Below, one piece after another: positions 1 to 36,546 of a stretch of DNA of 36,546 nucleotides. The translations under genes and the position numbers were made by a program. Within the stretch, counting starts at the first letter, position 1; each line of letters starts with the position of its first letter. Where the stretch lies: positions 1 to 36,546 of the forward strand of contig LT635941.1 of assembly GCA_900128565.1 (NCBI GenBank). The letters run 5' to 3'. Below the pieces are notes generated by a model, which did not search any database, had not been told where the DNA came from, and saw only the letters and a program-made list of their open reading frames with translations. This DNA is from Stramenopiles sp. TOSAG23-6. Its lineage: Eukaryota > Sar.

Positions 1-81
1 TTTCTTGGGTTTTGTCGGAGCATTCACCAGTACCATAACAACCTTCAACGGCAACACATACAGCAACAGCTGCAATATTTT
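1..81 (-). repeat. Segment almost identical to gene B 24999-25079
   Basis: Gene A 1-81 matches 24999-25079 at 80 of 81 positions (the one difference is at 56/25054). It encodes CVAVEGCYGTGECSDKTQE. Similarity drops sharply just inside the gene A copy. Confidence 0.9.
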
Positions 82-3000
82 GATGTATTTTTATATTTGC
101 CTTGACACTTGTAATAACGCAGTAATGGTGAAATGGTGAATCGCAAGGATAAATTTCACCTTCCTCGCAGTAAAACCCAACAGGACATTCAATTCGTTCA
201 CTACTTCCTTCAGGACATATGTAATTTTTACCAGTTACAACATCTGTGCCCGAACAATTTTTGCGTCCCTTTCGTCGTTCGCAATAATACCCCTCCGGGC
301 ATATCTCAGTAGTCTTTGCCTTGGGACAGAAAAATCCGGCTGGACAATGTTCTGGAACTAGTGAGCCTTCTACACAAAAGTGCTTGTATTCTTTATTTTC
401 TAATCTTACGTCGCCAATATTTAAAGACCAGTCACAAGATTTCGATTCTGCAGGGGTGTAGCAATAATTCCCAACAGGACATATGCTAGACTTTCTTGAT
501 CCTTCAGGACACCATTGGCATGTCTTCGGAGATGAGTCTGCACAAAATCTATCGATATCACATCGTACTTTCAGATCCGAAGTTTCACAATAAAATCCAG
601 CTTCGCATACTTCGGGGACAGCATTTCCTCCCATACACGAAAGAGACTTTTCTTCTGCGCCCCACGTAGCAGCAACATTCCACTTACATGGCTGAACGCA
701 TTGGGCTTCATTGGTAATCGAATTACAAGCATCACTTCCTAGGCATTGACTATGACATTTAGCGACAGTATCCCGTTCATCTGTTACATCATTCCCATCC
801 TGTGTCAAACACCTTCCTCTCTGGGAAGTAGGATGCAACGTCTCTATCCAAGCACCAGACCAAGTACATGTCTCTTCTCTTTCAGCATAACCCATTCGCT
901 TGTGAGTACACTGTGACAGCTTCTCTACTTCGTGTATATGATATTTACCTTCAATATTTTCGACGCATAAGGTATCGTGATCCGTCCATGTTCCAACCTC
1001 GCCTGTAGTATCATCAGATACCGTACACGATGTCCTTGTTTTATCAGGCAACAATCTACTACGAGCAGAAAACCACGTACAAACATCGCCAGTGCAATCA
1101 CTTTCGGACTTATCAATACAATCATCGGGACCATAGCAACCTTCTGATGCTACACAAACGGGTCCATGCCAAGTACCAACTTGGCCAGTAGTACTATTTT
1201 CAGTTTCACACGAAGATAAATTATTAAGGTCCAACACAACAGAAGCATCATTTACCCAATTACATTCCGACCATAAGCATTTATTTGACACACAAGTACT
1301 AGACGAAGCAATACCAGTACAACATGCATCTGATTTGACCCAAACATTAATGTCACTATGTTTTAAACTACTAGCTGACCATAATTTGCATTCACTGATT
1401 AAAATATTGAGACCCCGATTCTGTATTTGAGTAGTGTCACTTTTACCAAAAAGGGAAACCCCAAGATATGTGCCGTTCACACTAAATTTAATATAAAACA
1501 GCTCACTTGATTGAGGAATCGATAATGATTTACCCTGTATCGCACCTTCGGTTAGCCCTGCGACATAAATATTCCCAGCCGAATCTTCCGTTGCGGTGTA
1601 GGCATTAACGTTAGCATTGTCGTCAGATACAATCTCTTTGATGAACTTTTGTTTACCCGTCGAACTATCACAGCTAATCAATAGTAAATCAGTATTTCCT
1701 TTATCATTTACTCGAGAACCTACAATTATAACATCATTTGATACCGAAGAAACATATAATGCTGCCGCCGTCGTAGCAGTCCCTGGTTTACCAAATAATG
1801 TTGTGTTTAGTATTGTCCCAGTCCCACTCATTTTTATTAAAAATGCATCTTGTGTACCGGTAATGTTGACTTCATTAAGTGTGCCGTCAGGCGTTTTTAA
1901 TGTGTTTCCAACCACCCAAATATTTCCTTTACTATCTGCAAAAAGTGCAGTTACTGTGCCATTCGTAATGTTTAAGTCCTTCTCAAATATTTCCACTAAA
2001 CTCGTACCAGTTTGAAATGAAATCAGATAACTCGTAGACTTTTTATAGACACTATTTTTGTAGTCAGCCTCTTCAAACGTATTTACTAGAACATACACCT
2101 TGCCATCAGTAGCAATGATATCGACGGGTTCGACAAGCCACACAGGTTTGTCAAATTCAAAGCATTTTTTAGTGGGTTTATCGATATTTAAATGGACAAT
2201 ACACCCGTTCGCACCGGGTTCATCTATTTTTCCTTCCTTTAACAATGCAAATATTTTCCCGGATATTGGTTGCAAAGCAAGGCCAAATGGAGTATAATAT
2301 ACGCCAGTTTCCCCAATCAATGTTTCAGACTGTAACTCGCCGTCTAAATTAAATTTCACTACTAGTAAATCAGCCTTACCAGTTAAAGCAATGTCATTGA
2401 TTGTTGACTCGGAATTGCCCAAAACCCAAACATGAGATGAATCGGTTACAATTCCGTAGCTACTAGTAGACTTTGGTAAATCTTGAGGTGTATATTTCTT
2501 CTCGATGAAAGATTTCGATGGATCTTTTGGACCACACGAAATGTTACATGTTTCCTCCCCTGATTTCCAAGCACAATCTTTTGTTTCTTCATTGTCATCT
2601 GCATCAAAATTTTCACACTCTNTTTGGCGTGTTTTCCCAATACAAGCATCTTTAAATCCACCATTACCATCAGATTCACAGCCAATAGTAGTACCAGTTG
2701 CACATGTAATTCCTGATGTTCGGACGCATCTTGGCACAGATAAATTACAATTACCTGTGCCAAAGCAACCTTCTTTGCTTACACATACATCCAAATCAGA
2801 AATATTTTTGCCGCCTATTACACATGCGTGATGATATGGTGGATCACAAGGGTATACATCTTTTCCATTTTGACAGTAGAATCCTACTGGGCATTCTTTT
2901 GGTGATCCTGTACCCTCGGGGCAGTACCACCCAACATCAGATGTTTCTTCGGTTGGAGGTACATATGTAGCACAGCTTCCAGGAACGGTCCCTTTGGGAC

Positions 3001-6000
3001 AGTACATACCTTCTGGGCATGGGTCTATTCGTATGCCGTTGCTACACATCTTCCCAAGAGGACAATCATCAGGTGATGAACTACCTTCAAGACATATATA
3101 TGATTTATCACCTCCTGCTCCTTGCATACATGGAATTTTGGTAGAAGGATCCGGACAGAAATAACCAAGAGGACAAAGAGTTCTAAACTTGGTCCCGGTA
3201 GGACAATACGAAGCTTTGCCGTCAATGTCGAGACATTTAATTTGAGTTTTTGATGTGTTACATTCGGATCCCTCTTCGCAATCTTGAGGACTAGACATAC
3301 CTGCTTCAGAATTACAGTAGTACCCATAATCGTCCGATTCACACGAATGAACATGTAAACCTTTTGTACAATAAGATCCTGCTGGACATGCTATAGGCGC
3401 ATTATTTTTTCCTGGACAATACCAAACATAATCCCTGCCTCTGAGAACAGTAACTGTAGGGACTCTGCTAGGGTCCCAAACACACGATATCGCTTCATCA
3501 GAGGACTCACAGAAGTGTCCAGCAGGGCATTCTTGCGGGTTCTTTGATCCTCTGGGACAATACGATCCGTCATTTTTACAGTATACTTCTTCTGTGCTAT
3601 TTGGTGAATAATTAGACATTGACGAAACACTAGGAGTGCCCGAGCCTTCGGGACAGTACAAAGTAAGTTCCTCTTGAGACCATATACCCATAATTGGGTT
3701 CCATTGGCATCCTTCCTCTGACTTTGACTCACAATTTGTTTGATCATATTGATGGCATCCATCTTTTCCTGTACAGTGATTTTCGCAATCTAATGGATTC
3801 TTTCTTTCTGCAGTTACATCAAGGTTGCCGAATTTTGTGATACATTTACCTCTAGGCCTATTTGGATGAGTATGAGATTTCCACGAACCATCCCAATGAC
3901 ACGTTTCTCCTGTATTTGCAAGCCCAACATACAAACTATTTCCGTCGCAGGATGTTGAATCTACTACTGGAATTACTTTGGAGTGTGATGCTGTTGTTGA
4001 GACACATTTATTTTGGGAATCATTACAACCCTCCGTGTAACTTACATCTGTACAACATACTCTATGTGAAAACCTAACAAGTCTCGCATTAGTTGAATCA
4101 CTATAAATATTTGCCCAATAAATACGACATCGTGTGTAGACAATTCCCAATCCCATATTTGCTCGACCAGCTTCGTTAAGTAGCGGATAATTAGTCGATA
4201 TTGGTCTCAAATACGGATTCTCGCCATTGTTATCAAATTCAGCTAATTGCATACTCACGCTATCATCAGTCTTGGTCTGTACTGCTACGTAAATGTTATT
4301 AAATTCGTCGGCAACCATATCTAATGTTTTTATGAGCATTAAACTGCCTAAATTCAAAGTAAAATTACAATCTTTTGTTTCTGCATTACCATCTGCATCA
4401 ACATCTTCACATTCACTTTGTGTAAATTTCCCAACACAAGCATCTCTAAATCCACCAGAATTATCAGATTCACACCCTGTAGTAGTATCATTTGTACATG
4501 TTACAGTCGAAGCTTGAAAACACTCAACTTCCTTGTGAATTACTTCTTCAGTCATATTTCCACTATCGTCAAATTGTAAGAGTAATGCTCTCCGAGTAGT
4601 AGAGCCAGTGATTATGTTTTCCTTAAAGCCTGCAACCCAAATTCGTTCAATGGAATCAACAATTATAGAAGTTCCAACAGTTAAAGATAAAGGAATGGCA
4701 ACAATTTCAGTGAAAACGATATCTCCATTGCTCTGAATTTTTCTGAGAAAAAGACTTTGTTGGCCAGTTTTTGGGTCAATTGTGTGACCTGTGAGGTATA
4801 AATCCCCAGACGAGTCAATAGCAAAATCCTTGACACTTCCAAAACCACTAAAGATTTTTCTTTTTGTAGGGTTTGTATCTGTATCAGAAGGTTGGAATTC
4901 AACAAGCCAAGATTCCTGGTGATTCCAAAGACCGTACTTTTCAACAGTGATAAGTGTATAATATTTAGTTTTGCTAAAATTGGACAAAACTCCAATCGGA
5001 ATAGTTTTATAGCCCTTGCCAAAATTATCGAAATTTAAAGTTTTTGTACCTGTATGTGCACCATCCGAAGAGAATTGCAATAAAGATATCGGATGTTCAT
5101 CATAGTCAATATTTCCTTCTACGACAGCAACTATTACACCCCCGTCACCAGTAATGGCAAAACCACCAACATTGTAGGACTTTCCAGAGATACCCCACTG
5201 ATATGTAACAGTTTCGCTTTCACTGGCAATCTTTTGAAGCAAAATATCACGAATCCCTGTGAATCCATCATTTTCCCATGTACAATCCGATGTTTCTGTA
5301 TTATTATCTGCATCAAAATCTACACATTCACTTTGCGTTAATTTCCCGATACAAGCATCTCTAAACCCACCACTACCATCAGACTCGCATCCTGCAGTAC
5401 TGCCATCTGTGCATGTTACGGATGATGTTTGAGAACAGATAATTCCCTTTTCTGCGATGACCCAAACGACTCCATCTTTGTTTACATTTACCATAGCACC
5501 GGTAATATTCGTTGAACCTTCACCAAATACATGTCTATCCGTATCTTCTTCGGAAGTTCTATCTGTAAGGCTGCAGGATTGTATCGTGCTTGTTTCAGCA
5601 CAAATAGTTGATCCTTCCAATGAAATCCCTTTCAAAACACCAATTTTGTTGTTATTATTCTCATCATGAGTAGCGCATAGCGTTTCATCGCTATGACCTG
5701 TAATTTCGGTAACAGTTTCAACCCATTCACATCCTGTATCTCTACATTTATCGGCGGTATCTTGCAATTTACATGTATCATAACTTACAGTGATTATATA
5801 ATCACATTTCGCGTTTTGAAAACACGTTGTGGCATCTAAATTAGGACATTCAGAATAAGAACTAACACACTTTTTGTCATCTGTTAGCCATGTACACTCT
5901 GAATTTGATGTACACCCAGATATGTCTAGCCCACTACAATCAGATACTGCGCTTAGTTTACACTGACCTGTTGTATAACAGCCCCTTTTAATGATACACA

Positions 6001-9000
6001 TTTCGTTTTCTTCCCATGTTCCTACCAAGCCTGTTTCAGCTGTTGGTGTTATACAAGAAATTTCAGACGTTCTCGTATTTAATATTTTATTGCTACTGAT
6101 CCAGAGACACCCATCACCACACTCATTGCACCCACTTTGACACGAACTCTTAGTTTTAAGCGCATTACACGCGGCATTATTATAACATCCTTCAACAGCA
6201 CGACACACAGGGCCATACCAATTGATATTTATATCAGGAGAGCCGGTGGGGTAATCGAAACAATTTTTCACATCCTGTGCTGAAACAGAATAAGGTTTGG
6301 TTACACCATTATCAAGTATACAAGATGACCCTTGCCATGTACTTGTCCATATTCCTACTTTGCCATTGGTAGAATCATGTTTTATACATGATTCTTCAGT
6401 TAAACGAGACGTTAAAATATATGAGTTTCCAACTATCCATTCACAATTGCTAGTGTCATTGCATACCGAATCTACATCTGTATTACATCTACCTGTCCCA
6501 TAACAACCTTCTCTAGCAATACAAACATGGCCGTGCCAACTACCATATTCAAAAGTTGTTTCATCAGGTTCGCGGCAAGACTTGAAGTTTGTACGATCCG
6601 CCAGAAGCTTTTCGCCTTTATTAATCCAATTACAATTGGTAGAATCATCACACTCTTGCTTTGAACTATTATCAGTACAATCTTTACTTCCAAAGCAACC
6701 ATCCACACTAACACATGAAGCAACTTGAGCAATGTTTTTATTGTTTACAAGACATGCATGATGATACGGGGCATCACAAGGATACTTTGAATGGCCAAAT
6801 TCACAGTAGAATCCAGGAGGGCATTTACCTCTTTTGGCGCTTCCAGCTGGACAATAATCACCATTTCTATCGCATTGATGATTTTCAGTTTCACCAATGT
6901 CATCACAAAAATATCCCACAGGACAAGTGTGACACTGTGGAAGTTGATAATCAGATGTATTGTAACTCCCGGGAGAACAACTTTCACAAGAACCACCATC
7001 TTTTAAATATTTACCTGGGCCACACAAATTAGCTACTACAGGTTCACTCCAAGCTCCCCAGTCAATTTCAAAATCACCATTGCTTGCTCTAACCCTTACC
7101 CTGTATTCTTCACTGTCGTCAACAGGATAAAGCCGAAAGAATCTGTCACCAGAACTACATCCAGAGATGTCCATGATTTTATCATCACTACCTTTGTTGC
7201 CATCGTCGTTCTCCCCCGGAGCGTATACTCTAAATGCTTTTGTAACAAAGTCAATATTAGTGTTAACATCGAAGCCAATTTTTGATATCTTTCGTCCACC
7301 ATTTGCGGGACACGTAAACATTATAATAAGGGCTTCGCTTGAAGCACCTGTGGGTAAACGTACATCCCAACACTTCACATCACCCCCACAAGGAAATAAT
7401 CGGAAGTTTTTACCTACGCGTTTCATAGAAGTTGCAAAAGCTCCATCAGCAGAATTTGGTCCCTGAAACATTTGAACAATTTCTGGTGGACTAATATTCT
7501 GTATCTTTAAAGAGCTATACATGTCTGCAGATTTTCCAACGGAATTTGATGCTTGTACACGTAACATGAGATCCATATTTGGCTCATCGACAGACATATT
7601 ACTCAGCACGGCAAGCTTAAGTGACCCTGGGGTACCATATAAAACCCAACCGGGTGCATTCCAGTCACAGTTCCCACCACAGTCTGTCTTTCCCTTCTGA
7701 AGACATGTCTCATAAGAAGTTTTGACACAAAATGACTCTGTTTTATGTGGATCACGTACCCAGCTACAATCTTCATCGCCGTTACAAGAACTTTCGACAG
7801 TAATTTTGTCGCAATCGGTTACTATCGGCCTACAATATGCTTTGTTGCCCCACCCACAGTCCTCGTTTGCATCACAAGTATCTTTATCATGCTCAAAACA
7901 TTTTAGGTCATTTGATATGGCATGACATGCTTCGTATATAAATTGAAATTGGTATCTCATTTTCTCAGAATCGATGTCAATACCTTCAATAACTGGAACT
8001 CTTGCCACAATTGTACCATTCATAGATACAACTTGAATTGGTTTTGCATCGATACCATCTAACCAATATGGCTTTGTAATCTTTAGACACTGGCCTGGTA
8101 AAGATACTCTATATGTTGTATATATATCATGGTCAGTTAATGATGCCCATTCTTCTGTAGTTGCGTCCACAAATACATTCCTTGGTTTTTCAGCATATAA
8201 CTCTTCTAAACTCGAAATTGCAAACCCAATACCCGATTGAAATGTAATCTCCCCTTCCCACGAGCATTTTTCTGCCTTACTTCGCTCCGAGTTATCTAAA
8301 CAAACTGATGATGTATCGTGTTGTTCACAACCGCTACTTCCCGTTTCTATGTTTTTACAACTTATTTGTGTTGCTTCCTGAATTTTTCCAATTTCGTCAC
8401 CATTCGAATTATACACAGAATCATTTTGCTGAAAAGGTTGTGATATATCACCAGAAATTTTGATGACTGTATCATCAATTTCATATGCTTCAAGAACGCG
8501 CAAACGCTCACTGACTTTTCCAAAGTATACATTGTTTGGTGTAAATAAACTCATACCTGGAATAAACTTTTTCCATACAGGATCCATCCACGTACCATCT
8601 GAGTCTTTACACTGACTTTCCCAGCTGGAAGACGTGCCTTCACTTTCCACTGTATCGGACACATCGTGGGTCCCGTACATGCAGGAAGGAAACTTCAATA
8701 TGTTTTTTCCATTCTGGATGATTTTATTGAAGGTATTTCCTGGTAGTTTATATATTAATCGTTTATACAGTTCAATTAAATTTGGAAGTTCTTCCAAGGT
8801 TCCAGGAGCAAGAAAAGTAAGATTTGCTTCCCACGAACAAGCATCATTTCTTCGACAATCAATGAATGTTTTGTGCTTTGCACATTGGGGGGGGGTCTCT
8901 TTATCCTTACAAGCTAATTCTTCTACGCCAGTCAGTTTTCCTATTAAAGTTCCATCAGCTTTGTATACAGTGTCGCCTGGTTTAAATGAGTGGGGAATTG

Positions 9001-12000
9001 CACCACCAGATACCCTGATTATTGCTGTTTCCTTATTGTATGTGTTAATAACATGTAATGTAGAGTCACCGCCACATACATCGCATTCACTTTGTGTATT
9101 TGCAACACCGCCAGGAACAATGCATGTATTTTGGAAAAATATTTAACAAAAAATAGTTAGGTACAACATTTCGTACGAAAAAAAATCAAATTTGAAAAAA
9201 AAATAAAACATACATTTTTCTGGTATAAACGACGCGACTTCCTTTTCACCCTTGACCAAAGGCACATTTTTGTATACTGGATCACTCCAATGACAATTAC
9301 TCTTTAGACATGAACTTTCTGTCGTCAAAGAACTACATACTTTTACTTCTACTACATGTTTATCCCAGGTACCCCCTGAATCAGTACAATCTTTTTCATT
9401 GTCCACTTCATCGGATACATCATTGCCCCCGTACACACAGTAAGAAGCCGTACCACCAATGCAGCCCCCAGCATCACTGTAGCATACGTTGTAGTTGGTA
9501 ATCGCATCAAATCCTGAAGATAAGTGAAACTCAACAAAACCATGATTTAAATGTGTGACTAATAACGGAAATGGACCTGCTACAAAGTCAGTTGCAGTCT
9601 CACAAACTTCTTTGGTAATTACAATCAATGGCATTACTACCCACGCCCCATGATGTGGACTATCGCGAACAATATCTTCTAATTCAAAAGATAAGATTGT
9701 CTTTTCTTCATCTTCATTATTACGGATCGTACCATTATATGATACCACTTTGGGATTTTCAATACACATAGTTGCACCCGAACCACCTGTATACTGCCCC
9801 TCTTGGCATACTTTACAAGTCGATTTCGTATTCGCAAAAGCTGTTGATGGTAGTTCAGCACCTGGGCCTGTGGCACCTGGGTCAGGAAAGTATTTACCTA
9901 CTTCGCAATCTATACAATCACCAACCTCATCGTGATCAATTGCACGAACAATTGAGTTATCTGGAATTCTGATGTACTTTCCAGCCACACAACTTATACA
10001 AGATACCGATCCTGTCATATCCTGATACTTTCCAGGGTCGCATACTATACAACTGAAAGGAGCCCGATCGGTGTATGTGGCTAAATTCTGTGGTACAGGA
10101 CTATGTTTACCTTTTGCACAGACATGACATGTTCCTTCGCCTTCATTACTATACTTCCCCGCTTCACAGAGGATACAATCTCCTGGGGCATCGTGATTTT
10201 TATTGTACACTTCCCATTTACAAATGAATGCACGCCCCGAATACCGCCCATCCTTCCATATTCCAATTTTACCATTGTCATCCTCATCGGGTGCTTCACA
10301 CAATTCTTTTGTTTCACGAGTCAGTTTCTCCTCATTTACCCATGTACAGCCACTATCGCTTGATTCGCCACACGTAATTTCGTCGTCTATATCTCTACAT
10401 TGAACTGAACCGTAACATCCTTGTACACACATACACTCAGGAAGAGGGAAAGTCTCACTAATACACTTTGCTTTTGTGGAAATTGCGCTACAAGTATCGC
10501 CATCGTTACTATCTACTGCTGTACATGCTGGAGGAGTAGAAGGTAGATAGCTTCCAGCGGGGCACGATATACAATTAGATTCTTTCACTTGCCCGTCAGA
10601 ATCATTCCATTTACCCGTGGCACAAATTTTACAATCAGAAATATGATCATGCTCACTTTCACGTCCATCAGCAACACCTCCAGGAGCATCAAGATATTGA
10701 CCAGCAGGACAGTTCAGGCAACGATCTTCGTCTCTGACATTCATATCAGTTATGGCCCAAAATTTACCGGGGACACAAACAATACAATCCTCCACCTGAT
10801 TATGCAATGACGGTGTAACGTCATCAATAATGTATGAACCTGCTGGACAGTGTTTGCACCTTGCTGATGATTTCACACCATTGGGTTCATCGCTGTATTT
10901 TCCTGGGGGGCAAGTATTGCAAGAATTTATACTTATTTGGCCTATTTTTTCTTGATAAGTTCCACCTGGGCAGTTATAACAATCGCTTTCATGATCATGC
11001 TTACTTGTAGTATCATAACTTGTCAAGGGATTTAGTAAACCAGCTTCATCATTATATTTCCCCATGGGGCATTTTTCACATTCCGTGGCTCCAAGAGTAT
11101 CAGAATATCTCCCAATTTGACAAACAAGACATTTGCCAAGAGAGCTATGCGCATCAGATTTATCGCTGATACTCGCTGAGGCATCGGCACTGGCAAGAAA
11201 TCTACCTTTTATACACAATATACAATCTTTTACGGGATCTCCTTGACCCTTCAAAGGATTATATCTCCCACCAGGGCAAGGTTCACAGTCCCTTATATTG
11301 TCGTGGTCAGAAGGATTTCCCTGAGTTCTTACTGTCCCAGCGGGACACATAATACAAGAGGTAGCCCCCTTTATATCTACGTATTGACCTTCACTACAAG
11401 CTGCACAATCCATTATAGGATTTGAAGAATATTCGCCCATTTTACAGATATCGCATGTAGTAGCACCTATGCCTGTTCCGGTCATTGATCCAACGGGACA
11501 GACAAAACAAGAAGTTGGAAGATTGGGTTGGCCTTCAAAAGTGTATTTTCCAGGTCCACACTTTTCACATCTATCAGATCCTTCGTTCTCTGAAAATGAT
11601 CCGGGCTCACACTTTACACAGACATTATTATCATTGTGTTCCTTTTTTCCTGCCTCACAAGGCAAGCATTTGGTAGCGTCACCTGGTGGCGTGATATATC
11701 CTTCACGACAAGCTTTACAAGAAGATGCCCCCATGGTTTCAATAAATTTCCCATAAGGACAATTGATACAACTTGTTTCATTACGTTCAGAACCAATATA
11801 TTTTCCTACTTCACAGGGAGAACATGAACCACTCGCGTATTCCGTCGAGGTAGAAAATACGTCAGGTACAAAAAAGTTTCCTTTGGGGCACATTTCACAT
11901 AATGTATTTGTTGTTCGAGTGCCTAGAGTAATTACACAGTTGTCTTCGGAAGGTATAGTATGCGGCAGACATTCACCGAGACCGCTTTCTGGAGTATAGT

Positions 12001-15000
12001 AACCAGTGGCACATAATTTACACGCGCTATCAACGTAACTCCTATTTTTGAAACGAATAAGAACTTTTCCGTGGCCATCATGATCGCTCGGATGTTGAAT
12101 ATGATCAATGTATTTAATTTTTCGAAGGTCATCTTCGCTATTATCTGTGAGATTTGTGGCAATGAAACTTGTCCCCCCTTTACCTCCTCTATTATCAGTA
12201 ATGTACATCGTGTCTGGACTATTTTCACCAGAGTATCCAAAGTCTCCACCAATCCAACCACCTCCACCACCACCAGCATTTTTGCCGCCGTTACCACCAC
12301 CACCAAATCCACCCCATGCAAATGTGACACTACCACCGGCAGCACCTTCATCTATTGATTTGCCACCTCCTGCCGGAAGATTTGATTGATCTAATATATT
12401 TACATTATACACCGTAGTACCTGTCGACACTATCGAACATGTACCCCCCAAGCATGATGAATATTTTTGGTGCCAAATACAAGACGCCGCATAGCACATT
12501 TGAACATTTGTAGCTTTGCTACAATTTCCTGAATTCTCCAACGGATTATTAGTACACACAATATTGGGATCAAAATCAATTTTCATTCCCCATGTACAAT
12601 CCGAGGAGCCACACACTTTATCTCGAAGACATTCAGATGCCTTATACTCATAGACTTCTGAATCCATATTTGTCATACTATAGCACGCAGAATTGGAACT
12701 GATGGAAACCACTTCTCCTAAAAATCCTCCATGCTCGCTGTATACCCGATCCCCTTGTTTCCAAGACACGTATGGGGGTTCTGAAGCTGGTGCAGGTGCA
12801 GGAGTTTTTACAATAACTGATGGCATTCCAGTGTTTGTGTATGATATTGTATTAAATCCTTTTGGGAATTCATCAATAGCCTTGGCCCCATAACCAACTT
12901 CAGAAAACCCTGAACCACCAGCGCCTCCATTCGGTACAATTTCTTTTCTGCCATCAGCCATATTTAATTGAAGATCTGCACCAAAGCCACCCAATAACTT
13001 ATATAGTGGTTTATATTGACAGTTTCCACCCTTTGTAACTTTCACAATCGAGATAGGACCAGTTGCTTTCCATATACCCGTGCCAGTTTCTCGATTGACT
13101 GTCGTACACGAAGAATCTGGTGTTCGGGNATTCCATACCATGCCACGACAACCACCGCAAGTGACGGGACATGCTTGCATAGTAGTCTGAGCTGGATCTG
13201 ACCAAATGACGTCATCGGTGTTGCAATTTTCTACCGATTGTGCACAATACATTTGATCGTTGCTTTTATCTTCGCGATCTTTGCAAAGTGATGACTCGTG
13301 GTGATGGTGTGGACCTATGATCCACTCACAAGTTTCAACTTCCTCACACGTAGCCTTAGTCTCATATTTACCTTTGCACACGGAAACAGCCTCTTTCCAT
13401 ATACAACCTTTTGAAGTCAAATCATTACACGAAATTCTATCTTTTCCCGTACAGTAAAAGCACTTATTATCATTCACTGTATTNTCACAATCGCAAAATG
13501 CAGGCTCTTCGGGAGGGGATCCAACACCGTTGTGGTAACAACCTTGGTCAATGATACATTCTCCAAAGTCAACCCATATCCCCATTTCATAAGTAGTTGA
13601 GTTTACCCCTTCGCATGATGCTCGCGAATATTTTTCATGAAGTGATTTTGTATTGGCAGGTACCCAACTACAATTAAGGTTATCCTCATTGTGACATGTC
13701 TCTTCATCAGTTACACCACTACAATTTTCGAAACTATCATAACCACTGTCCATATTTCCAATGCACCCTTCTGCAGATATACAAACACCCGAATACCACG
13801 TACGANTTTTACCAGTTCCAGAATTGTTCTCACATGCGTCCATAAGGATTTCAGTTTCGGCTTTAATCCATTTACAATCGGTAGTATTTTCACATGTAAA
13901 TACGTTGTTAATATCAGCACAATTTCCAGTTCCGTAGCAACCTTCAGTTGTAACACATATAGGATTAGGACTCGAAGCATTACACTCAATTAAAATTTGA
14001 GCTTCAGGCATTTCTTCACAGCAGTTTTCTTCGCCTTCTACGCATTCGAATACAATATTTCCTGCAACATAACCATCACCCGCATTTATTATTTCAACAT
14101 TCTCCAAGACTTGATTTCTCATACGAGTTTTTCCTCCTCCTCCAACAGAGGTATTATACCCAGAGTAATGTGATGCAACACCTTCTGAATTGACACCACC
14201 ATTACCTCCTTCAGGTCCATTATTTGGATTTGCATAGTTGACCAAGTATAACACGGCATGTTCTTTCAAAGGAAGAATATCCCAAGAACACGAATCAGCA
14301 TTTTTACACTCTTGTTCGCTGTCTTCATATGTGCTACATTCTGCTGCGTCACCAACACAAGACATTTTATTATCCATTTCAATCTTTGCATAAAACAGAC
14401 AATTATCATGGTAATTGCAGTCATCTTTATCTAGCTTCTCGCAGTCACTTTCCGACGCAGTATTAATACCATGACAACGTGCAATCTGTTTGGCTGTCAC
14501 TCTACGAGAATCGCCTTCTTCTGTATACAGATTGTTGCCAATCTGAATGGCTCTCCAGAGGGTATCGTATTTTGTTTCATTCCATTCTCCTCCGACATCC
14601 CACCCTGATACCATAATATATGGAGGTGTACTTTTTTGTATTTTCCATCCTTCAGCTTGACCGTGACCATAACCACTACCACCAGCACCACCAGCAATAA
14701 GCAAAATATTCTTTTCTGATACTTTCTTTGGATTTTTGTCACTGCCGAGAAACACAAAAGTTCCACCAGAACCTCCACCGGAATATGTTGCGCGAGTGTC
14801 ACCCATGTTGGAAGAAGTTCCAATTGTACCCATCTGTCCTACTAAAATAAAAATCTTGGTACCTCTGGTGAGCTTAAAGTGACCTTCAACGTGTCCACCA
14901 TTTCCTTTAACTCTTGGCACATTGCGCGGACATGTGTAAGTTTTGTCAACCCCATTCATATTTGTTCTACATTCAGTCCAAACATCCCCTGCACCATATG

Positions 15001-17260
15001 CTTCAATTATATATTCAGCAGTAGCTGGAACAGTCCATACTTGGTAACCTGGAATTGGAACATCATAAAAGTATTTCTTGCGAATCCAATGTCCTGGGGG
15101 CAGATTTTCTTTTAAAATATATCCATCCGCTTGGGCAAGACAATCGTCTTCTGAGGGACCTTCGAATCCTGTTTTACCGCAATTATGAAATATATGTCCA
15201 GAAAACTCGTATAGATCAGCTGGTTCACCATTGCCGGAACGATAGGATCCTTTTGCACAAGTTCTGCATGTCGTCTTTGCCAATGTAACTTCGTTTGTCT
15301 CTGAATTCAATGTTGTATCATAACCAAACCCCCCTGAAGAAAATCCATATTTATCGGCACAAGAGCAACTGTATCCTCCAACATGGTTGATACACTCACT
15401 ATATTCTATATCGCTGTTTGCGTCCGACTTCAACTTACCAAGGCATGGATCCGGATCAGCTTCACAATATTTCTTCAGAACACAAGTTTCATTCTGAAGT
15501 TCGTAACCAGTAACGCAATTACAAGTGTAATCTTCCGCGCCTGTTTGTTCACACACGCCACCAACGCCACAATCTTTATTAAGACATAAATTTTGTGTGA
15601 TACATGGGTTCGGAAGAGTAGAAATTATATTTGGCCCTCCTATAATACCTACCACACCACAAACACAAGTATTGGTCGTATTTGAACACGTTCCTCCTCC
15701 TATACCACACATGCACTCATCAGGAGTCTTGCAAGAATCACTACCCCACCAATTACCAATTTTAAGTTCGTATTTTTTTTCACAAAAGGATTTGTTTAAT
15801 ACACATGGTCCCCCAATTAGACCTCCTTGAAAACCTGTTGGACAGGTGCAAAAATAATCTCCAGTAGAGGGAGTGCAACCATCACTTGTTTTTGAGCAAC
15901 AATTCGCATCCTTGTTCAAGTTTAGACCAATGTTGATAATTTTTGCTGTGCACATTTGTCTAGCAGTATCTCCACAAGGTATACTTGCACAAACATCATC
16001 TTCTATGCACTCATTTTGACCTTCATCGTTAACTTTACCAGAGTATCCTTCAGCACACTCACCACAATTGATTCCTTTGTATCCCTGAACACAAGTACAT
16101 TTGTATGTTGACTTCACATCACTACATTTACCGTGACCACTACAATTTTGTTCCGTTGGAAATTTGCAATTATCAATATTTTCACATGCTGAGTAGCAAT
16201 CCTTTACACATACATCGTCTTGCGATAAATCAGAGCAACCCGCTCCACATGCTTTGCCTTGGTCCTTACCGACATGACAACTAAGAAGATTAACACCACA
16301 AAATTGTCTTGCACCGGATAAACGAGGGAAAATCGCCGCACCATCCCCATGAGTACAAGGAAATTCCGTTGTGTACTCATCACTATCAATAGGACAATTT
16401 GTGGCTTCATAATCAAGACACATACTTGGATTTTCATCAACATTTTCTTCAACCTCAGTATTCCCAAAAATCCGAAAATCTGTGAGATAACGTAAATCTG
16501 CGACTACAGGTGGAATTCGACCATCAATGTGATTACCTTCTAATGAAAGTGTGATTATGTGTGTCAGCAGCGATATAGTATCAGGAACCCGGCCAACGAA
16601 TGAATTGCAACCCAAGTAAACGTGTTTTAGTTGTGCAATCTGCCCAAGCTCAGGTGGTATCTTACCACCAATACCTCCTCTTGGTCGATCTTCATCAGCA
16701 TCCGATCTCTTACAATTACTAATATTTATCGAAGTCAATCTCGTTAGATTTTTCACATTCGCATCAATAGCCCCTTTTAAATTGACGCCGTTTCTTCCTA
16801 AATTGAGATTTGTCAAAAATTCAATGTTATAGAAAGTACTTGGTATAGAACCATTGAGATTATTGCCCCACTTGTTTATTTGGGATGCGGCGTTACAATC
16901 ATCTTGTCCAACACAGTTACTGTAAGTTCCACTTAAATTAATTTTTGTTATGCGTAACTCATCGAGGTCAACTTTTAGACCTGATTCCCCACAACCAGCT
17001 ACATTTCTACAAAGCATACAAGTTATGCCATATGCGGGTATACACTCGTCCAAAGTTTCAGTGTCTAGTGAATCTATGTTTGTACAGCATATATTATTGT
17101 CGTCAATATTCCAACCAAATTTATTTTCCCAAGAATCTCCTCCTGTAGAATTATAAAGTTCATCTACACTTTCTCTATCATAGATATTGGTGTTATGACC
17201 AGCATTTACGACAAGCAAAATGCGCAAAAGAACAATGGAAAGTATCTTCATATAATACAT
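1..17260 (-). CDS. Gene A: giant Cys-rich LRR/EGF/glycine-rich/ephrin-receptor-like surface protein, 3'-partial
   Basis: The start is the ATG at 17260 (context gagaaATG), followed by a hydrophobic signal peptide. Coding continues to about 9216, is broken by a 90-bp in-phase insertion (9126-9215), and resumes at 9125. The same frame is open at every point I checked (codons starting at 9124, 7024, 2764, 1204 and 58) and runs off the left edge, so the C-terminus is missing. Order: signal peptide, LRRs, EGF-like modules, an ALK/LTK-type glycine-rich region split by Cys insertions, about 20 ephrin-receptor-like Cys repeats, the insertion, an FN3-like part, then Cys superunits with two beta-propeller-like blocks. 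About 5,720 residues are visible. By alignment with gene B roughly 6.8 kb is missing, including the membrane bundle. The product is probably an extracellular or surface receptor-like protein. Ligand and activity are unknown. Three N bases in the 5' part (13129, 13484, 13806) and one at 2622 give undefined residues. Confidence 0.85.
1330..2500 (-). other. Gene A beta-propeller-like block 2
   Basis: Strands such as SYGIVTDSSHVWVLGNSEST, ADSKGNIWVVGNT, DAFLIKMSGTGTI and DSAGNIYVAGLTEGAIQG fit SBBP-type propeller repeats (D..GN.yv.G.T.G...G). It is collinear with the propeller block in gene B. It ends at CKLWSAS followed by the Cys pair segment CCTGI. Confidence 0.65.
2560..2720 (-). repeat. Gene A 'CESD-GGF-DAC' Cys module, copy 1
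   Basis: About 45 residues: CATGT.IGCESDGNGGFKDAC, then IGK, an N-containing codon, EC and a DADDNEET acidic loop ending DCAW. It is one of three copies in gene A. The base at 2622 is N. Confidence 0.75.
4362..4510 (-). repeat. Gene A 'CESD-GGF-DAC' Cys module, copy 2
   Basis: Reads CTNDTTTGCESDNSGGFRDAC, then VGKFTQSEC and DVDADGNAET. It sits inside beta-propeller-like block 1. The acidic loop looks like a calcium-binding loop. Confidence 0.75.
5276..5435 (-). repeat. Gene A 'CESD-GGF-DAC' Cys module, copy 3
   Basis: Reads CTDGSTAGCESDGSGGFRDAC, then IGKLTQSEC and DFDADNNTET. It is closely similar to copies 1 and 2 at DNA level. I found no copy in the visible part of gene B. Confidence 0.75.
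7020..8300 (-). other. Gene A fibronectin-III-like region
   Basis: The end of the block reads RVRVRASNGDFEIDWGAW, the classic FN3 ending (Y.vrvrA.N......WS). Upstream, a second FN3-like ending (LRVQASNSVGKSA) is visible. It is followed at once by the CGPGKY Cys modules. Gene B has the same arrangement at 30920-32400. Confidence 0.6.
9126..9215 (-). other. 90-bp intron-like insertion in gene A with non-AG 3' end
   Basis: The coding frame of gene A reaches a TAA at 9143-9145 inside an AT-rich stretch that gene B lacks. Removing 90 nt restores a protein matching gene B (EKC then IVPGG, against DKC then TVPGK). The duplicated ATG at the two edges allows four equivalent cuts: AT-AC, TG-CA, GT-AT (9213-9124) and TA-TG. 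The GT choice gives a good U2-type donor, GTATGT, and CTAAC lies at 9160-9156, about 32 nt from the 3' end. There is no AG anywhere near the 3' junction. The ends are also short inverted repeats (ATGTAT and ATACAT). An intron is the best reading. A genuine stop or a retained insertion is possible. Confidence 0.7.
9750..12030 (-). repeat. Gene A ephrin-receptor-like / GCC2-GCC3 Cys-repeat array
   Basis: About 20 tandem units of 35-60 residues follow the pattern C..CP.G.Y....G...C..C, for example CEVGKYIGSERNETSC, CGPGKYTFEGQPN and CPAGTVRTQGNPSDHD. Many carry an acidic H-D-D-C linker. This matches the ephrin receptor-like (GCC2_GCC3) family that is often tandemly arrayed in protist surface proteins. 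One EGCYG module (about 10430-10250) interrupts the array. Confidence 0.85.
12030..15065 (-). other. Gene A ALK/LTK-type glycine-rich region, split by Cys-rich insertions
   Basis: The first part (about 15065-14100) starts WTVPATAEYIIEAYGAG and includes LVGQMG, GGGSGGTFVF and LLIAGGAGGSGYG. A middle part (about 13010-12880) has NGGAGGSGF. The last part (about 12400-12030) has AGGGKS, GGFGGGGNGG, AGGGGGGWIGGDFGY and HGHGKVLI. Order and motifs match the glycine-rich domain of animal ALK/LTK receptors (GGGGGGYIGG, GHGEVNI). Between the parts lie two Cys-rich stretches (about 14100-13010 and 12700-12420) carrying EGCYG modules that the animal domain lacks. Resemblance to ALK is in the extracellular domain only. 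No kinase is seen. Confidence 0.75.
15330..16260 (-). other. Gene A EGF-like modules
   Basis: Several EGF-like patterns occur in series between the LRRs and the glycine-rich region. Examples are NCSGHGKCSD followed by CTCVQGYKGINC, YFCTCPTGFQGG, YTCNCVTGYELQNETC and GGYSCSCADKYGF. These show the C.C..G[YF].G..C signature, and some have a calcium-binding-like spacing. They look like spacer modules of an extracellular stalk. Confidence 0.75.
16408..17191 (-). other. Gene A N-terminal leucine-rich repeat domain
   Basis: Residues about 24-285. It begins with an LRR N-cap of the plant/protist type (ELYNSTGGDSW, then a Cys-bearing segment ending YGITC). Repeats with the L..L.L..N...G.IP pattern follow (for example LNGSIPSTFYNIEFLTNLNL and VGRVPDTISLLTHIITLSLE). 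About five to six repeats are visible. LRRs of this class are usually protein-binding, so this is a plausible ligand-recognition tip. The partner is unknown. Confidence 0.8.
17201..17260 (-). other. Signal peptide of gene A
   Basis: The first 20 residues are a short positive start (MYYMK) followed by a hydrophobic core (ILSIVLLRILLVV) and an NA-G boundary after residue 20. This is a typical secretory signal with an AxG-like cleavage site. A second ATG at residue 4 (17251) would also give a complete signal peptide, so either methionine could be the true start. The signal supports a secreted or surface-exposed ectodomain. Confidence 0.85.
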
Positions 17261-17657
17261 TTCTCTACTATTATGGTTATATTACCGGTAGTTTAACTAA
17301 ATTTTGTGAAAAAACGGTTTCTACAAAGGCGGTGTGTCTCGTTCCAAAATATCAAGATGTGGACAATCTTTAGGTATAAAATTTCGTACCATTTTTGAGT
17401 TTGTAACGGTCAGTTTTTTTGGTTTCAAAAATTTTGATAAAAAATCTCCGATACGTACTATCATCCGAAGATCTGTCTCATCTATCTACAGATCTGATTA
17501 CGATTACAATTGCGACGGTGGATAGCTAATATTAGATAGTTGCCGCTACTGCAGTAGCAGTAGAATGTAAATGTATTGAATTAGCGTCAGCATGGATTAT
17601 TATATGTCAGACAATAATAAGTGTAATACAATGAGAGATGTAAATTATTTGTATTGT

Positions 17658-18130: not shown

Positions 18131-18204
18131 CTATTTTATTATTTTACGCTCAAATTATAAGAAATTATTTTATACTATTTTATTATTTTACCCTGAAATT
18201 ATAA
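18131..18204. repeat. Direct repeat over gene B stop codon
   Basis: Two copies of ctattttattattttac.ct.aaattata, at 18131-18160 and 18175-18204, offset 44 bp. The second copy overlaps gene B's TAA. The duplication may therefore have copied the end of the coding region and its poly(A) signal. Confidence 0.8.
18178..18183 (-). terminator. Candidate poly(A) signal AATAAA for gene B
   Basis: AATAAA on the minus strand begins 16 nt after the stop codon. A second AATAAA at 18140-18135 arises from the duplication. In AT-rich DNA such hexamers occur by chance, so this is tentative. Confidence 0.35.
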
Positions 18205-18470
18205 TATTTGTTCATCAGGGCCATTTTCATTCCCATCAGAAGATGATGAGCTGCCAGACGAAGACGAACCTGAATCTGAAGAATCTGATTTCATACTTTT
18301 TCGCTTTTCTTCAATCAATTTGCGTTCTTCTTCATGACGTTTTAACCTTTTCAAATTCTCTTCATGTTCGTGCAATTTTTGCTGCAAGTTTGTTAAAGAC
18401 GGTCTGTTATTCCACTTTGCTGCTAATTTATTCAAAAACGCCCTTTGTTTCGGACCATACGTCATACGTA
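18199..18470 (-). other. Gene B cytoplasmic coiled coil and Ser-rich acidic tail
   Basis: After the last membrane segment comes a charged helical stretch (LQQKLHEHEENLKRLKRHEE) with heptad-like Leu and Lys/Glu, then a Ser/Asp-rich end (SDSGSSSSGSSSSSDG). The acidic Ser run could be a casein-kinase-2-type phosphorylation region. That is inference from composition. Confidence 0.65.
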
Positions 18471-21400
18471 TTGGTGGAAATTTGTTGATAATAGTTATGG
18501 CGCCTTGAAACATACACCATGAAAGTAAACCAATAAGAGCGTACCCAACATTATCATTTTCGTGAGCTCGAACAAATGCATTGCCTTCGAGTAACAAGAA
18601 CGCATAAAATGACATACACACAGTGAAAAGTAGCACAAGTTGTAGTGCGAAATCTCCGGTGAAGCGATAAGGTTTTACAACTGCAGTGATGCCTAGGAAG
18701 AAACAAGACACGACCACAGCAACTGCAGCTCTTGGAATACCTTTGGGTAGCGCAGCAAGCATACCTGTCATCATTGCCTTCCGCATCATTTCTATGAACT
18801 CATACCACCAAATACCATGCCTATAACTTAAGAAAAGTGAGCCATATTGTTGAGTGAGACGATAATGTTGCTCACGAAGCTCGGGTTGCGACATCATAGC
18901 ATCGTACATTTCATCCCCCATTTCATCCTCAGGAATCAGCCACATTCGCCGACGTCGCAAAAGAAAGAAACCAAACAATGGGATACCAATGACGTATGTC
19001 CCAACACCAGCACATGCTGTCCAATATAGACGGTTGTAACCCTCATCATCACATCTAACTGCCAAATCAGCCATCAAATATGATCGACCATTCACTTCCA
19101 TACAATTAAATACACGAAAACATTTAACAGAAAGACCAGGATACAAACAAAATATTACAAGAAGCAAAATTCGTGTACCATTCATCTTAATACTTTGATA
19201 AGTAAATTTAGCCCGCTTTCCACAACATTTGCGGATTAGATTTGCAGTTTGCAATGCAAAGAACAAAACAATCGTGAAAACAGGAACAAATGAAAAATGA
19301 CCGTAGAATTTCGTAGCATAATCTGTACTGAATGTACAAGGTTCAAGCCAAGTTGCAAACGTTGCCATATCAAAGTTAACGAGATCCAAAGTATCACAAA
19401 AGCTGATAAATTTTCTTGGCATTTTCTCTCCAGTTGTTCGTTTCAGCTGTGACATGACTTGCATGAAACTTGCACAAATTTTTATTGTTGCAATCCATTC
19501 TTGAAACATTTGTGCTTTGCGATCCTTCTTGTCATCGTGAGAATGTAAACGCTTGCGTTTCTTGAGATCTTTATGAGCTGCTCTTCCACCAGGTCTCGTA
19601 GCAGCTCTATGTAGTTTTCTCATCAGTTTATCCTGTCCTTTCCTTGTTATTACTTGAGATTTTAGTGTTTGCACTTTTTCTAATGCTTTAGTAGCGCGGC
19701 GTTTAACTGTCATAATTTTTTCCACATCTTGTACAGAATACTCTGTAGTTTCTGTCATTGCATGTTGCATTCGAGACAGCAGTAGAGCTCTCCTTGACGC
19801 ATTTTTCATTTTGCGTTTCATTCGTTTCATTTTTTGTGCAAATTCATCATGATAATACCCTTGATCAGGTTTTGACATTACAAATATCACTGTAAAAACA
19901 TAAGCCAGAAATCCAACAATTCCAAGAAGTAGATACATGGCATCTTTATTACCTTTGCTATCTAAATGTTCTTTTCCTTCGCATTTTTCACAGTGAACCC
20001 CATCAGCTTGTAACACATATCCTTTTTTACATATAGCACACATAATCCCTTCATGACCTTTCCTGCAATTTTGCCAATTTGTTTCGTACATTTCACCAGT
20101 TTCTGTATTGTTACGCAACGCCCCAGCTTCGCATACTTGTGGTGCGAAACAACGTCGGAGGGTACATTCAACAAATGTTCTTGAAGAAGATTCCGGGTCT
20201 GGGGCTACAGTGGGGTAGCATGCGCATTTATTACAAGGATCATCATTGCAGCTAGATGTGATATCTTTTGCACAAAAGTAATCTGGGTGTAACTTTAGAA
20301 GTTCTGGGTCTTGCCAATAACCAAACTCAGGTAAGTCACTTCGAGGGCCTAGCGGATATTTACCTTCTGATAAAAATGCTTCCTTTTCTGTATCGTCCAT
20401 TTCGTCCATAGGACAATCGTATAACCATGTTGTACCCTCAATTTTAGATTCAGATCCCAAAGCATGATACTTACATTTTCGCTTGCAAATCCCATTTTCA
20501 TCCTCACAAGGGGTAATGTGAATACGTCGAATTGCTTCTCTGGTTTGTAATGCTACACCAGGTCGATCACATTTTGCCCCTCTAGGGCAGGGTAAACATT
20601 TCTGTGACCATGTATCTGTTCCCATTAATATCTCGACAGGCAATGATTCCATCGTGAGAATATCCATCGCATTGCAATTATGTTCTTCTGCAAACGAGCG
20701 GCTTCCATGGGTAACACCTACTGGTCTCTTCCCTCCGCAATCGTCTCCAAATTCAAAGTACTTTGAGTTGAAATATTTCAATGTATATTTGAGCTGAAAC
20801 TCTTCCGTAGAAGGACATGCATCTGGATTTTCAAGAGATTTACCCTGGCATTCTCCATCAGGAGCCCAATATATATTGTTTCCTCCTAGATGCGCATAAT
20901 AGTTTGCTGGACATTCGCATCGGTCACGGACCCCACCGATAACATCACCTGTAACCAACTTGATATCACCCCATCTAGGACATGCTAACGGAGTTATTTG
21001 TCCAGAATCGCAAAACTCTTGCTCTTGACATGCAGTTTTCATTGCTGGGTTCATACAGTAATATCCTTTGGGACACATACTTGATGTATACCACCCACCA
21101 CGGATGATCTTTTTGGTTACGACTGCAGGATTGACTTTCGGTCCACAAAATACTCCAATTCCTTCACAAAGAGTCTCTTCCACTGAAGTTTCACAAAAGT
21201 ATCCCGCAGGGCACAAATGAGCAGAGTGACTGCCTTGAGTACATCGGTATGAGGTACCGTGATGAACTCCTCCCTTATCAACTATAGGATCAACTGTATC
21301 ATATTTTTCGTCAGACCAAGCCGCAAATTCTGTAGATTCGCATTCTTCCTTGGTTTCTATTGCCTCATAAAATGTACCAAGAGGTACACGATTTTCTGCT

Positions 21401-36400: not shown

Positions 36401-36546
36401 AGATACAGTAGTATAGCATCTAATCTCGCTACCAATACTTTCAACAATACCTAAAAATAAACCTGTTGATGTATAAAGTTTGTTGCCTGTTTCCCACTCT
36501 GCTGGGGGTCCTGAATTGTAAGGCCTTTTTATAATTATACTCGAAG
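18199..36546 (-). CDS. Gene B: giant Cys-rich multidomain protein with C-terminal 8-TM bundle, 5'-partial
   Basis: This is a paralogue of gene A. It enters from the right edge within the glycine-rich region and ends at TAA 18199-18201. From about 35909 leftward one frame is open for about 5,900 codons with no intron. To the right of the C8 run at 35910-35917 the homologous reading lies in another frame, which stays open to the window edge. Order: end of the glycine-rich region, ephrin-receptor-like Cys array with a Cys-free KYxKM-like insert, PAN/apple-like module, FN3-like part, two superunits of EGCYG and CPxGYYC modules with one beta-propeller-like block, further Cys arrays, a juxtamembrane Cys domain, about 8 membrane segments, a coiled coil and a Ser-rich tail. 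The membrane part resembles the multi-pass bundle that ends many large protist Cys-rich proteins. Channel or receptor activity is inferred, not shown. Ns at 28418 and 33117 give undefined residues. Confidence 0.88.
18480..19970 (-). other. Gene B multi-pass membrane domain (about 8 segments)
   Basis: Hydrophobic segments, with rough positions: AMYLLLGIVGFLAYVFTVIF (19950-19880), WIATIKICASFMQVM (19500), FVPVFTIVLFFALQTANL (19300-19230), RILLLVIFCLYPG (19175), GVGTYVIGIPLFGFFLL (19020-18955), AAVAVVVSCFFLGITAV (18740), LQLVLLFTVCMSFYAFLLL (18650) and YALIGLLSWCMFQGAITII (18550). A long basic loop (19860-19520) separates segments 1 and 2. Motifs YEFIEMMRKAMMTG and KPY match the family of protist multi-pass proteins sometimes described as TRP- or polycystin-like. 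Channel function is not demonstrated here. Confidence 0.75.
20000..20940 (-). other. Gene B juxtamembrane Cys-rich domain
   Basis: Contains CPANYYAHLGG, CLPCPRGAKCDRPG and CTLRRCFAPQVC, then CRKGHEGIMCAICKKGY and HCEKCEG just before the first membrane segment. An EGF-like C..G..G..C..C..GY unit immediately ahead of a multi-pass bundle is common in large protist Cys-rich membrane proteins. Confidence 0.65.
26860..28090 (-). other. Gene B beta-propeller-like block
   Basis: Begins KFIQYENSATTAITEGIGI and continues with WVLGHTTGNINGK, DIVIIQYSS, LDSSGNLWGTGF, FDSSDHIWVGGTK and IYLAGTTEGNLKGQ. These are typical SBBP-like strands (G.T.G...G......d..v.k). About 410 residues suggest one propeller of 6-8 blades. 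It ends CNLWYVGS and then CCGGM, as in gene A block 2. Confidence 0.65.
30920..32400 (-). other. Gene B fibronectin-III-like region
   Basis: Starts at the conserved ECDVCGGD segment and includes ILVQVVAINSMGKSSPT and NVKVRAANGDTSLDWSAWSP, both FN3-type strand endings. Between them are short Cys pairs (CQGHGC, CEEYGSHCDW). It is collinear with gene A 7020-9120. Confidence 0.6.
32590..32890 (-). other. Gene B PAN/apple-like module
   Basis: After YGWGKCLDDH comes SCKNDCLKLPNCNAIAYKN, then CCYLYEDKC and a closing hydrophobic strand (YSMYI). Cys and aromatic spacing fit PAN/apple-type modules, which bind proteins or glycans. I see no counterpart at the equivalent place in gene A (about 9370-9480), so this looks like a domain difference between the paralogues. 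The family call is by motif only. Confidence 0.55.
33420..35760 (-). repeat. Gene B ephrin-receptor-like / GCC2-GCC3 Cys-repeat array
   Basis: Tandem units such as CEAGKYNEGGNNSREC, CPAGKYNILVGQ and CVVCDPGKYQNIRGG. It is collinear with the gene A array but lacks its EGCYG interruption and instead carries a Cys-free KYxKM-like insert at about 34490-34731. It ends with the conserved segment TPKLLSFTGLLRN, matching NPKVVSYNGTIRN in gene A. Confidence 0.85.
34490..34731 (-). repeat. Cys-free tandem repeat (44-residue unit) inserted in gene B Cys array
   Basis: Two units begin QYQKYVDIQNTSEND and QYQKYLKMQNDTEDN. Their first codons lie at 34731 and 34599, exactly 132 nt apart. Each continues with M..DGIP and ends AFF. 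The KYxKM...M..DGxP...FF pattern resembles the short repeat seen in the WASH subunit CCDC53 and in many stramenopile proteins, although the usual GVPxxAV core is replaced here. The stretch is GC-richer than its surroundings (many CGTCG and GACGG-type triplets), has no Cys, and is absent from gene A. Confidence 0.75.
35770..36170 (-). other. Gene B glycine-rich region (C-terminal part)
   Basis: This is the counterpart of 12030-12400 in gene A, with PAGGGKSF, GGFGGGGNGG, AGGGGGGWIGG and HGHGKVVISF. Nucleotide similarity to gene A is visibly high (long matching stretches around 35920-36055 against 12180-12320). The C8 frameshift lies inside it. Confidence 0.8.
35910..35917 (-). other. One-base frameshift in C8 homopolymer of gene B
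   Basis: The minus strand reads AAA followed by eight Gs, then CAAG. The homologous site in gene A (12173-12178) has six Gs followed by ACAAG. Removing one G here gives KGGASFIA, matching KGGTSFIA in gene A. The open frame on both sides argues for a sequencing error or a very recent mutation. Confidence 0.8.

Follow-up and report, generated by a model that had tools for sequence, protein, structure and literature searches.

A 90-nt insertion that splits one of two paralogous genes in the window (the whole stretch analysed, 36,546 nucleotides of contig LT635941.1 from Stramenopiles sp. TOSAG23-6) is most probably one copy of a family of elements of about 90 nt, predicted to be spliceosomal introns that end in AT and likely to be mobile in the manner of introners, with duplication of two target bases. 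Copies of this family lie in sense orientation in coding frames, restore these frames exactly when they are removed, rarely end in AG and vary jointly at their two edges. The original prediction had offered a choice between a non-canonical spliceosomal intron and an introner-like mobile insertion; the dispersed family, the reading frames, the motifs and the direct repeat support the two together. The copies likely illustrate the spread of new introns, and introners are among the best evidence for the bulk origin of introns.

An intron-like insertion in one of two paralogues

Gene A (positions 2–17281, minus strand, open at the low end of the window) encodes a long Ephrin_rec_like-repeat protein and appears in the list of open reading frames as two open parts, 17281–9143 and 9142–2 of the minus strand. 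The domain PF07699 (Ephrin_rec_like) was recognised in it with an E-value of 1.5e-39 (piece 9143–17281 scanned). Its paralogue, gene B (18199–36450, minus strand), is a single open frame of 6083 codons, read from 36450 to 18199, for a very long protein built of the same kind of repeat (PF07699, E = 9e-28, piece 28000–36450 scanned). Direct reading of the sequence bore out that gene A is split by a stop-containing insertion without an acceptor: it measures 90 nt, occupies 9124–9213 of the minus strand, contains stops and has no AG at all. As predicted, only one paralogue carries it; gene B is colinear across the junction and has its empty site between 32424 and 32423. With the exons of gene A joined, ...SFIPEKCIVPGGVANTQSECDVCGGD... 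is colinear with ...SVIPDKCTVPGKVAKKQIECDVCGGD... in gene B, and a longer view of the junction sets gene A minus the insertion, ...SFIPEKCIVPGG..., beside ...SVIPDKCTVPGK... of gene B.

The element, supported by the sequence, the genome-wide repeat and the colinearity with gene B, runs from GTATGT to ATACAT when read in the GT-AT register. The donor GTATGT lies at 9208–9213 (minus strand), as seen in the sequence and in the family alignments. CTAAC at 9156–9160 (minus strand) is a putative branch site within the family core TGTACCTAAC and is followed by a T-rich tract, and the non-AG 3' end ATACAT lies at 9124–9129 (minus strand). All three features, already noted for the window copy as an intron-like 5' end, CTAAC and an ATACAT end, recur across the family. 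ATG stands at both edges on the minus strand, as the upstream copy of a direct repeat at 9213–9215 and as the downstream copy at 9123–9125, so the cut in the window copy can slide by up to 3 nt, and this copy taken alone equally allows an AT-AC intron at 9126–9215; the original statement that the duplicated ATG permits AT-AC or GT-AT therefore holds, and the cut is not fixed by this copy. The test across the family covered two bases of the direct repeat (AT in the window copy), and these repeat beyond chance. Just upstream of gene A, at 17348–17390 of the window, part of the element profile was also matched weakly (E = 0.0078; 0.0064).

The element recurs throughout the assembly

Further copies were sought, as the original prediction had proposed, in the assembly to which the window belongs (8.03 Mb, 408 contigs). 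A 141-base query gave at least 43 matches, a lower bound because just 40 of the 1211 first-look candidates were scored. Apart from the window, 39 of the 42 matches were 88–95% identical and three were 74–83% identical, and nearly all covered the element from end to end. The 16-base core GTACCTAACGATTTTT, when up to one mismatch was tolerated, was counted at 1011 places over the whole assembly (520 forward, 491 reverse) versus a single place for the reversed control; fewer than 1011 of these places are distinct because some contigs are duplicated or palindromic, and the count omits diverged copies. These matches and core places refute the idea of a unique insertion.

With a profile derived from 94 copies we obtained 35 matches at E ≤ 0.01, some of them copies that had contributed to the profile, in 94.5 kb made up of the window and six stretches of 8–10 kb chosen irrespective of known copies; the reversed sequence gave 0. 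Scaled to 8 Mb, this density would correspond, as a rough figure, to about 3000 copies. Among 94 copies picked by their end pattern, identity to the family consensus had a median of 92% and a maximum of 98%, so that part of the family looks young, in a sample found by similarity and leaning to young copies. The genes that host copies encode HSP70, kinesin, SET, USP and pyrophosphorylase proteins, among others. We also considered a viral source: an exact 23-base pattern gave 0 matches in IMG/VR, a result of little weight since it concerns one exact pattern.

Some contigs drew attention in their own right. The match positions make contigs C2, C58, C75 and C37 look like inverted duplications, loci L018 and L019 are alike around their copies, and C13 and C14 appear near-identical, as in whole-genome-amplified single-cell assemblies. 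On C18, copies are clustered at about 26.9–27.6 kb (L043–L045), one of them apparently inside or fused with another, and the core GTACCTAACGATTTTT occurs twice in this cluster with a spacing of 63 bp.

Removal of the element restores coding frames

Reading frames were tested in 79 clean-ended copies, taken from 133 distinct profile matches with enough flank (duplicates excluded, 54 dropped). Excision of the element left a 240-nt sense frame open in 67 of the 79 copies; in the same copies, cuts shifted by 1 or 2 bases left 13 and 10 open, retention of the element 8, and the antisense strand 6. Element lengths were evenly distributed modulo 3 (24, 25 and 30 copies), so the preservation of the frame is not due to length. 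Over 150 nt, the exact end gave an open frame in 65 of 69 copies, compared with 22 and 16 for shifted cuts, 6 with the element retained and 12 in antisense. No open frame followed exact removal in 12 of the 79 copies and in 4 of the 69.

Homologous proteins allow the junctions to be placed. The HSP70 gene on C83 carries three copies, and once these are removed it aligns to bovine Hsc70 (3c7n_B) with 774 bits and without a gap at any of the three junctions, each at ATACAT. Five further copies were read by eye in kinesin genes, including a head-to-tail pair on C76. From the frames and the homologous proteins we infer that the elements would be spliced out.

At the kinesin locus L128 (C76:2500–2770), the two head-to-tail copies occupy a single intron position, at about 50–240 of the locus, and the second begins at the AT end of the first. 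In other HSP70-family genes, at L010 (C16) and L011 (C120), the profile search listed no copy; L010 is one open frame of 622 codons.

A usual donor and likely branch site with an AT end

The family consensus of 94 copies reads GTATGTTTTATTTTTT...TTTCGTACGAAATTTTGTACCTAACGATTTTTTTT...GAAATATTTTTCCAAAATACAT, in which some positions of the ends and of CTAA were prescribed by the search pattern itself. A second common form starts with GTACGTTTTCAT and ends with CACAATACAT. GTATG or GTACG followed by TTT is found in nearly all aligned copies, which the search pattern partly imposed; in one family alignment the row of the window sits one base off. The distance from the branch A to the end of the element has a median of 35 nt (range 32–56, 69 copies). 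When the donor and CAAAATAC were held fixed, matched patterns ended in AT at 273 places versus AG at 5, so that candidate introns with a non-AG end, which the original prediction had suggested looking for, are plentiful; two of the five AG-ending places are the halves of one palindromic contig. The few AG-ending copies that we noted are L056 (at 351–442), L066 and L129–L132. The upstream dinucleotide was AT in three of the four AG-ending copies fetched, and the AG ends suggest a later T to G change that would have created an ordinary acceptor.

Compared with the motifs of U2-type introns, the elements have a fitting donor, GTATGT, and CTAAC at a usable distance, and they have no AG acceptor. 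U12-type AT-AC introns have an ATATCC donor and a TCCTTAAC branch site; the donor here is GTATGTTTT and the branch region TGTACCTAAC, which are not U12 signals, and we rejected this assignment. The inverted repeat that had been noted at the ends of the window copy is real, as complementarity of GTAT and ATAC, but it is just 4–6 nt long, and roughly one copy in four has lost its fourth terminal pair (T 0.76 at position 4). When four copies were folded as RNA, the z-scores were −0.06 to −2.3, the window copy folding like its shuffles (z = −0.06). The complementarity therefore looks minor, and a strong end-to-end hairpin was discarded.

Canonical introns occur in the same genome. By eye, the HSP70 gene on C282 contains an intron of the form GTAAGT...CAG and also enters an element copy at the contig end, and an HSP60-type gene on C380 has three introns of the form GTAAGT...TAG with no element copy seen. 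In the third HSP60-type intron (L123–L124, 32378–32045), itself canonical, one sequence of about 90 nt, GATGAGGACAAAATGACTTATGC..., is present in two copies. Prp8 is encoded on C84 (PROCN, 766.8 bits). Rfam models of U2 and U6 snRNA had no match in the assembly and likewise none in control genomes, and a U6 motif pattern matched one place, which Rfam did not recognise. A 564-nt stretch of eukaryotic SSU rRNA, which may be of stramenopile type, is present at locus L047.

The two edges vary together

The dinucleotides at the two edges were equal in 60 of 79 copies, versus 46.6 expected from their frequencies, and none of 10000 permutations reached as high a count. Among the 19 copies with mismatched edges, 17 carry AT downstream and a varied dinucleotide upstream. 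We widened the informative set to copies whose donor is preceded by CT, GT or TT, which are found at 31 places; five lay in loci already sampled, and the other 26 were fetched. Of these 26 copies, 16 end in AT, 8 repeat their upstream dinucleotide and 2 do neither. The pooled set comprised 93 copies, enriched for non-AT dinucleotides by the 26 selected ones, and 87 of them were open on removal. Ends other than AT occur in 18 of the 87 open copies, and in 15 of these 18 the end equals the upstream dinucleotide (TT in 8, GT in 4, CT in 3). TT ends, for instance, are found in 8 of the 15 copies with TT upstream versus 0 of the 72 others, and the association of the end with the upstream dinucleotide has Fisher p-values of 1e-7 for TT, 3e-4 for GT and 8e-4 for CT.

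A target duplication of 2 nt leaves edges that vary together in this way. The short target duplication of the original prediction is thus upheld in that a 2-nt repeat co-varies at both ends, but with many exceptions, including the AT ends of 16 of the 26 selected copies. So many AT ends after a non-AT upstream dinucleotide mean that the duplication is not always simple, or that the intron end was later drawn to AT. We also considered the edge mismatches as synonymous drift in the exon, which was not supported: 8 of 26 were synonymous in a single open frame, and the synonymous rate computed from AT/AT copies is 19–29% (8, 12 and 8 of 42 for C, G and T). The same 8 of 26 carry no information on the splice register. 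Taken with the number of copies, the edges suggest that the element is, or has been, mobile.

Position of the cut and competing explanations

The register can be read from copies that have differing edge dinucleotides and lie in genes for known proteins. In a SETD3-like gene (SET, L056), the GT-NN cut scored 59.3 versus 55.8 bits with the best chain, and Asn-His, common to the four PDB chains listed, arises only with this cut; in the GT-AT register the L056 copy would be GC-AG. The GT-NN cut also scored higher in a ubiquitin hydrolase gene (USP, L092; 48.6 versus 47.3), where it gives a Leu present in three listed hydrolase chains, all USP15, and in an EF-hand gene (L003; 49.0 versus 47.1), where Phe is retained. 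In the kinesin at L128, read by eye, it yields DSLGG, which we take to be the conserved form of the motif, and the other cut yields DSHGG. A UDP-sugar pyrophosphorylase (L069) leans weakly the same way (54.9 versus 54.3; Ser in 4 of 5 listed chains). The same introns might instead be cut as AT-AC or NN-AC, so that the intron begins at the upstream dinucleotide and the exon retains the downstream one. This cut is equally possible wherever the edges are identical, and the 17 of 19 mismatched copies with AT downstream look as if the upstream dinucleotide were free to drift. A WD40 repeat (L104) prefers it, with 28.0 bits versus 24.2 for GT-NN, as does COP beta-prime (L100) in that all four listed PDB chains match the NN-AC residue, Pfam preferring GT-NN there by 74.1 versus 73.3; at L059 the WD40 families disagree, and neither cut is favoured by L072 or L096. 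However, an AT-AC cut would place the GTATGT donor 2 nt inside an intron whose first base is unconstrained, and in SET, USP, EF-hand and kinesin it would lose the conserved residue, which the GT-AT register preserves. Of the two cuts originally offered, GT-AT is thus favoured by four protein comparisons and AT-AC is leaned to by two; we consider GT-AT clearly the better supported and the AT-AC alternative unlikely.

Several other explanations would account for part of the observations. The five matched-pattern copies that end in AG and the canonical GT-AG introns of this genome speak for ordinary GT-AG introns with their true acceptor farther downstream, but a cut at the first AG at least 10 nt past the branch A left the frame open in 26 of 69 copies, versus 65 of 69 for the exact end, and in 0 for AG alone, never rescuing a copy in which the exact end fails. 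The frame thereby rules out a hidden downstream AG, the HSP70 junctions are gap-free at ATACAT, and we regard this reading as highly improbable. We give as little credence to a DNA segment eliminated during development, like the internal eliminated sequences (IES) of ciliates, even though the elements are short, AT-rich and exactly removable and have a 2-nt direct repeat and short inverted ends. Ciliate IES are independent of the orientation of the host gene; here sense orientation prevails, removal restoring the frame in 67 of 79 copies versus 6 of 79 in antisense, and elimination needs neither a donor nor a branch motif, yet the copies carry both. The complementary GTAT and ATAC and the absence of AG at the 3' end could also point to removal outside the spliceosome with paired ends, as proposed for euglenid nonconventional introns. 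This is very unlikely, as the pairing is 4 nt long and lacks its fourth pair in about a quarter of copies, the folds of four copies are no stronger than z = −2.3, and the donor and branch motifs are spliceosomal. That gene B is intact without the element would suit a pseudogene in the A/B family, inactivated by the insertion or misassembled; we find this barely credible, given that numerous unrelated genes, HSP70 and kinesins among them, carry the same element, and that the pieces on either side of it mostly fit together (67 of 79). A different question is how the copies spread. A route by reverse splicing into RNA and subsequent reverse transcription, rather than by transposition of DNA, would be compatible with GT-AT splicing and would explain why copies sit in genes in sense orientation and have exact intron ends; it predicts no target duplication, whereas the upstream dinucleotide recurs at 15 of the 18 non-AT ends, which makes this route unlikely, though it has a real chance of being right.

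Under the explanation that we prefer, GT-AT introns spread by insertion into DNA, the element would insert at sites that are mostly AT and double two target bases. One of the doubled copies would stay as the last bases of the exon, and the other would become the last bases of the new intron. The GTATGT donor and the likely CTAAC branch site would travel with the element, so that a U2-type spliceosome would commit to it and take it up, and the second splicing step would use the bases directly after AATAC, of whatever kind. A bolder form of this proposal, which we hold tentatively and judge a little less probable than its opposite, is that these are self-spreading introns without an acceptor of their own, whose end is simply the doubled target bases (AT, TT, GT, CT and, by chance, AG). 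An intron that ends on the target copy would require the spliceosome to pick the 3' end by its position after the branch site and AATAC, and not by AG. If this were true, introns would have been created en masse while exempt from the AG rule.

Intact donors and branch motifs without AG, beside GT-AG introns in the same genome, amount to a natural experiment on how the 3' splice site is defined. Since copies ending in AT, TT, GT, CT and AG are otherwise alike, RNA from the host would directly measure the importance of AG. Gene finders that require AG would miss such introns, so similar families may hide in other uncultured eukaryotes.

Comparison with known systems

The nearest published case that we found is that of the introners of Amoebophrya A25 and A120, which the passages compared describe as short, repeated introns supported by RNA-seq, with non-canonical ends and no clear terminal dinucleotide signature, inverted repeats of 8–20 nt and direct repeats of 3–5 nt; they coexist with canonical introns, and a transposon-like spread was proposed (Farhat et al. 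2021, PMC7789003). The family described here resembles them, as far as those passages go, in being repeated, in its non-canonical ends, in the direct repeats at its edges and in the canonical introns alongside. It differs in its 2-nt repeat and 4–6 nt of complementarity, both outside the Amoebophrya ranges, and in the prevailing combination of a normal donor and branch motif with an AT end.

Introners have been surveyed across 175 genomes, with target duplications in 49 of 130 assessable families; the passages compared describe near-identical introns in many genes, splice sites that some families derive from the target copy, and GY/AG splice sites, among which GC and GA donors also occur (Gozashti et al. 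2022, PMC9860276). Near-identical insertions in many unrelated genes are likewise found here, and their removal restores the sense frame exactly (67 of 79). A target duplication and inverted ends are shared as well, the repeat being of 2 nt with many exceptions and the inverted ends of 4–6 nt. Unlike the GY-AG families in those passages, these elements end in AG at 5 places versus AT at 273.

AT ends are also known from the tunicate Fritillaria borealis, for which the passages compared report AG/AC and AG/AT introns, 95% of introns being non-canonical, a last triplet that is almost invariably YAY, and divergent U2AF paralogues said to recognise the non-canonical 3' ends (NAR 2026, PMC13326754). 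The CAT with which our elements end fits YAY; in contrast to what is described for Fritillaria, their donor is GTATGT and not AG, and canonical introns occur beside them. In the compared passages on euglenids, nonconventional introns have non-canonical borders, direct repeats flank a recently gained intron, and the best conserved feature is pairing of positions +4 to +6 with −8 to −6 (Milanowski et al. 2016, PMC4770533). Our family shares the non-canonical borders and the direct repeats at the edges. By eye, its consensus has TGT versus AAA at these positions, so that the middle pair (G/A) fails, and it consists of near-identical copies, a trait that those passages do not mention for euglenid introns.

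The family is not described in the passages compared from Farhat, Gozashti, NAR 2026, Milanowski, Seeleuthner and Labarre, of which the last two, on uncultured marine stramenopiles, were compared for their passages on introns, splice or splicing, repeats and gene prediction. The kind of element is known; what is new with respect to the literature compared is a normal donor and branch motif joined to an AT end that is set in a 2-nt duplication.
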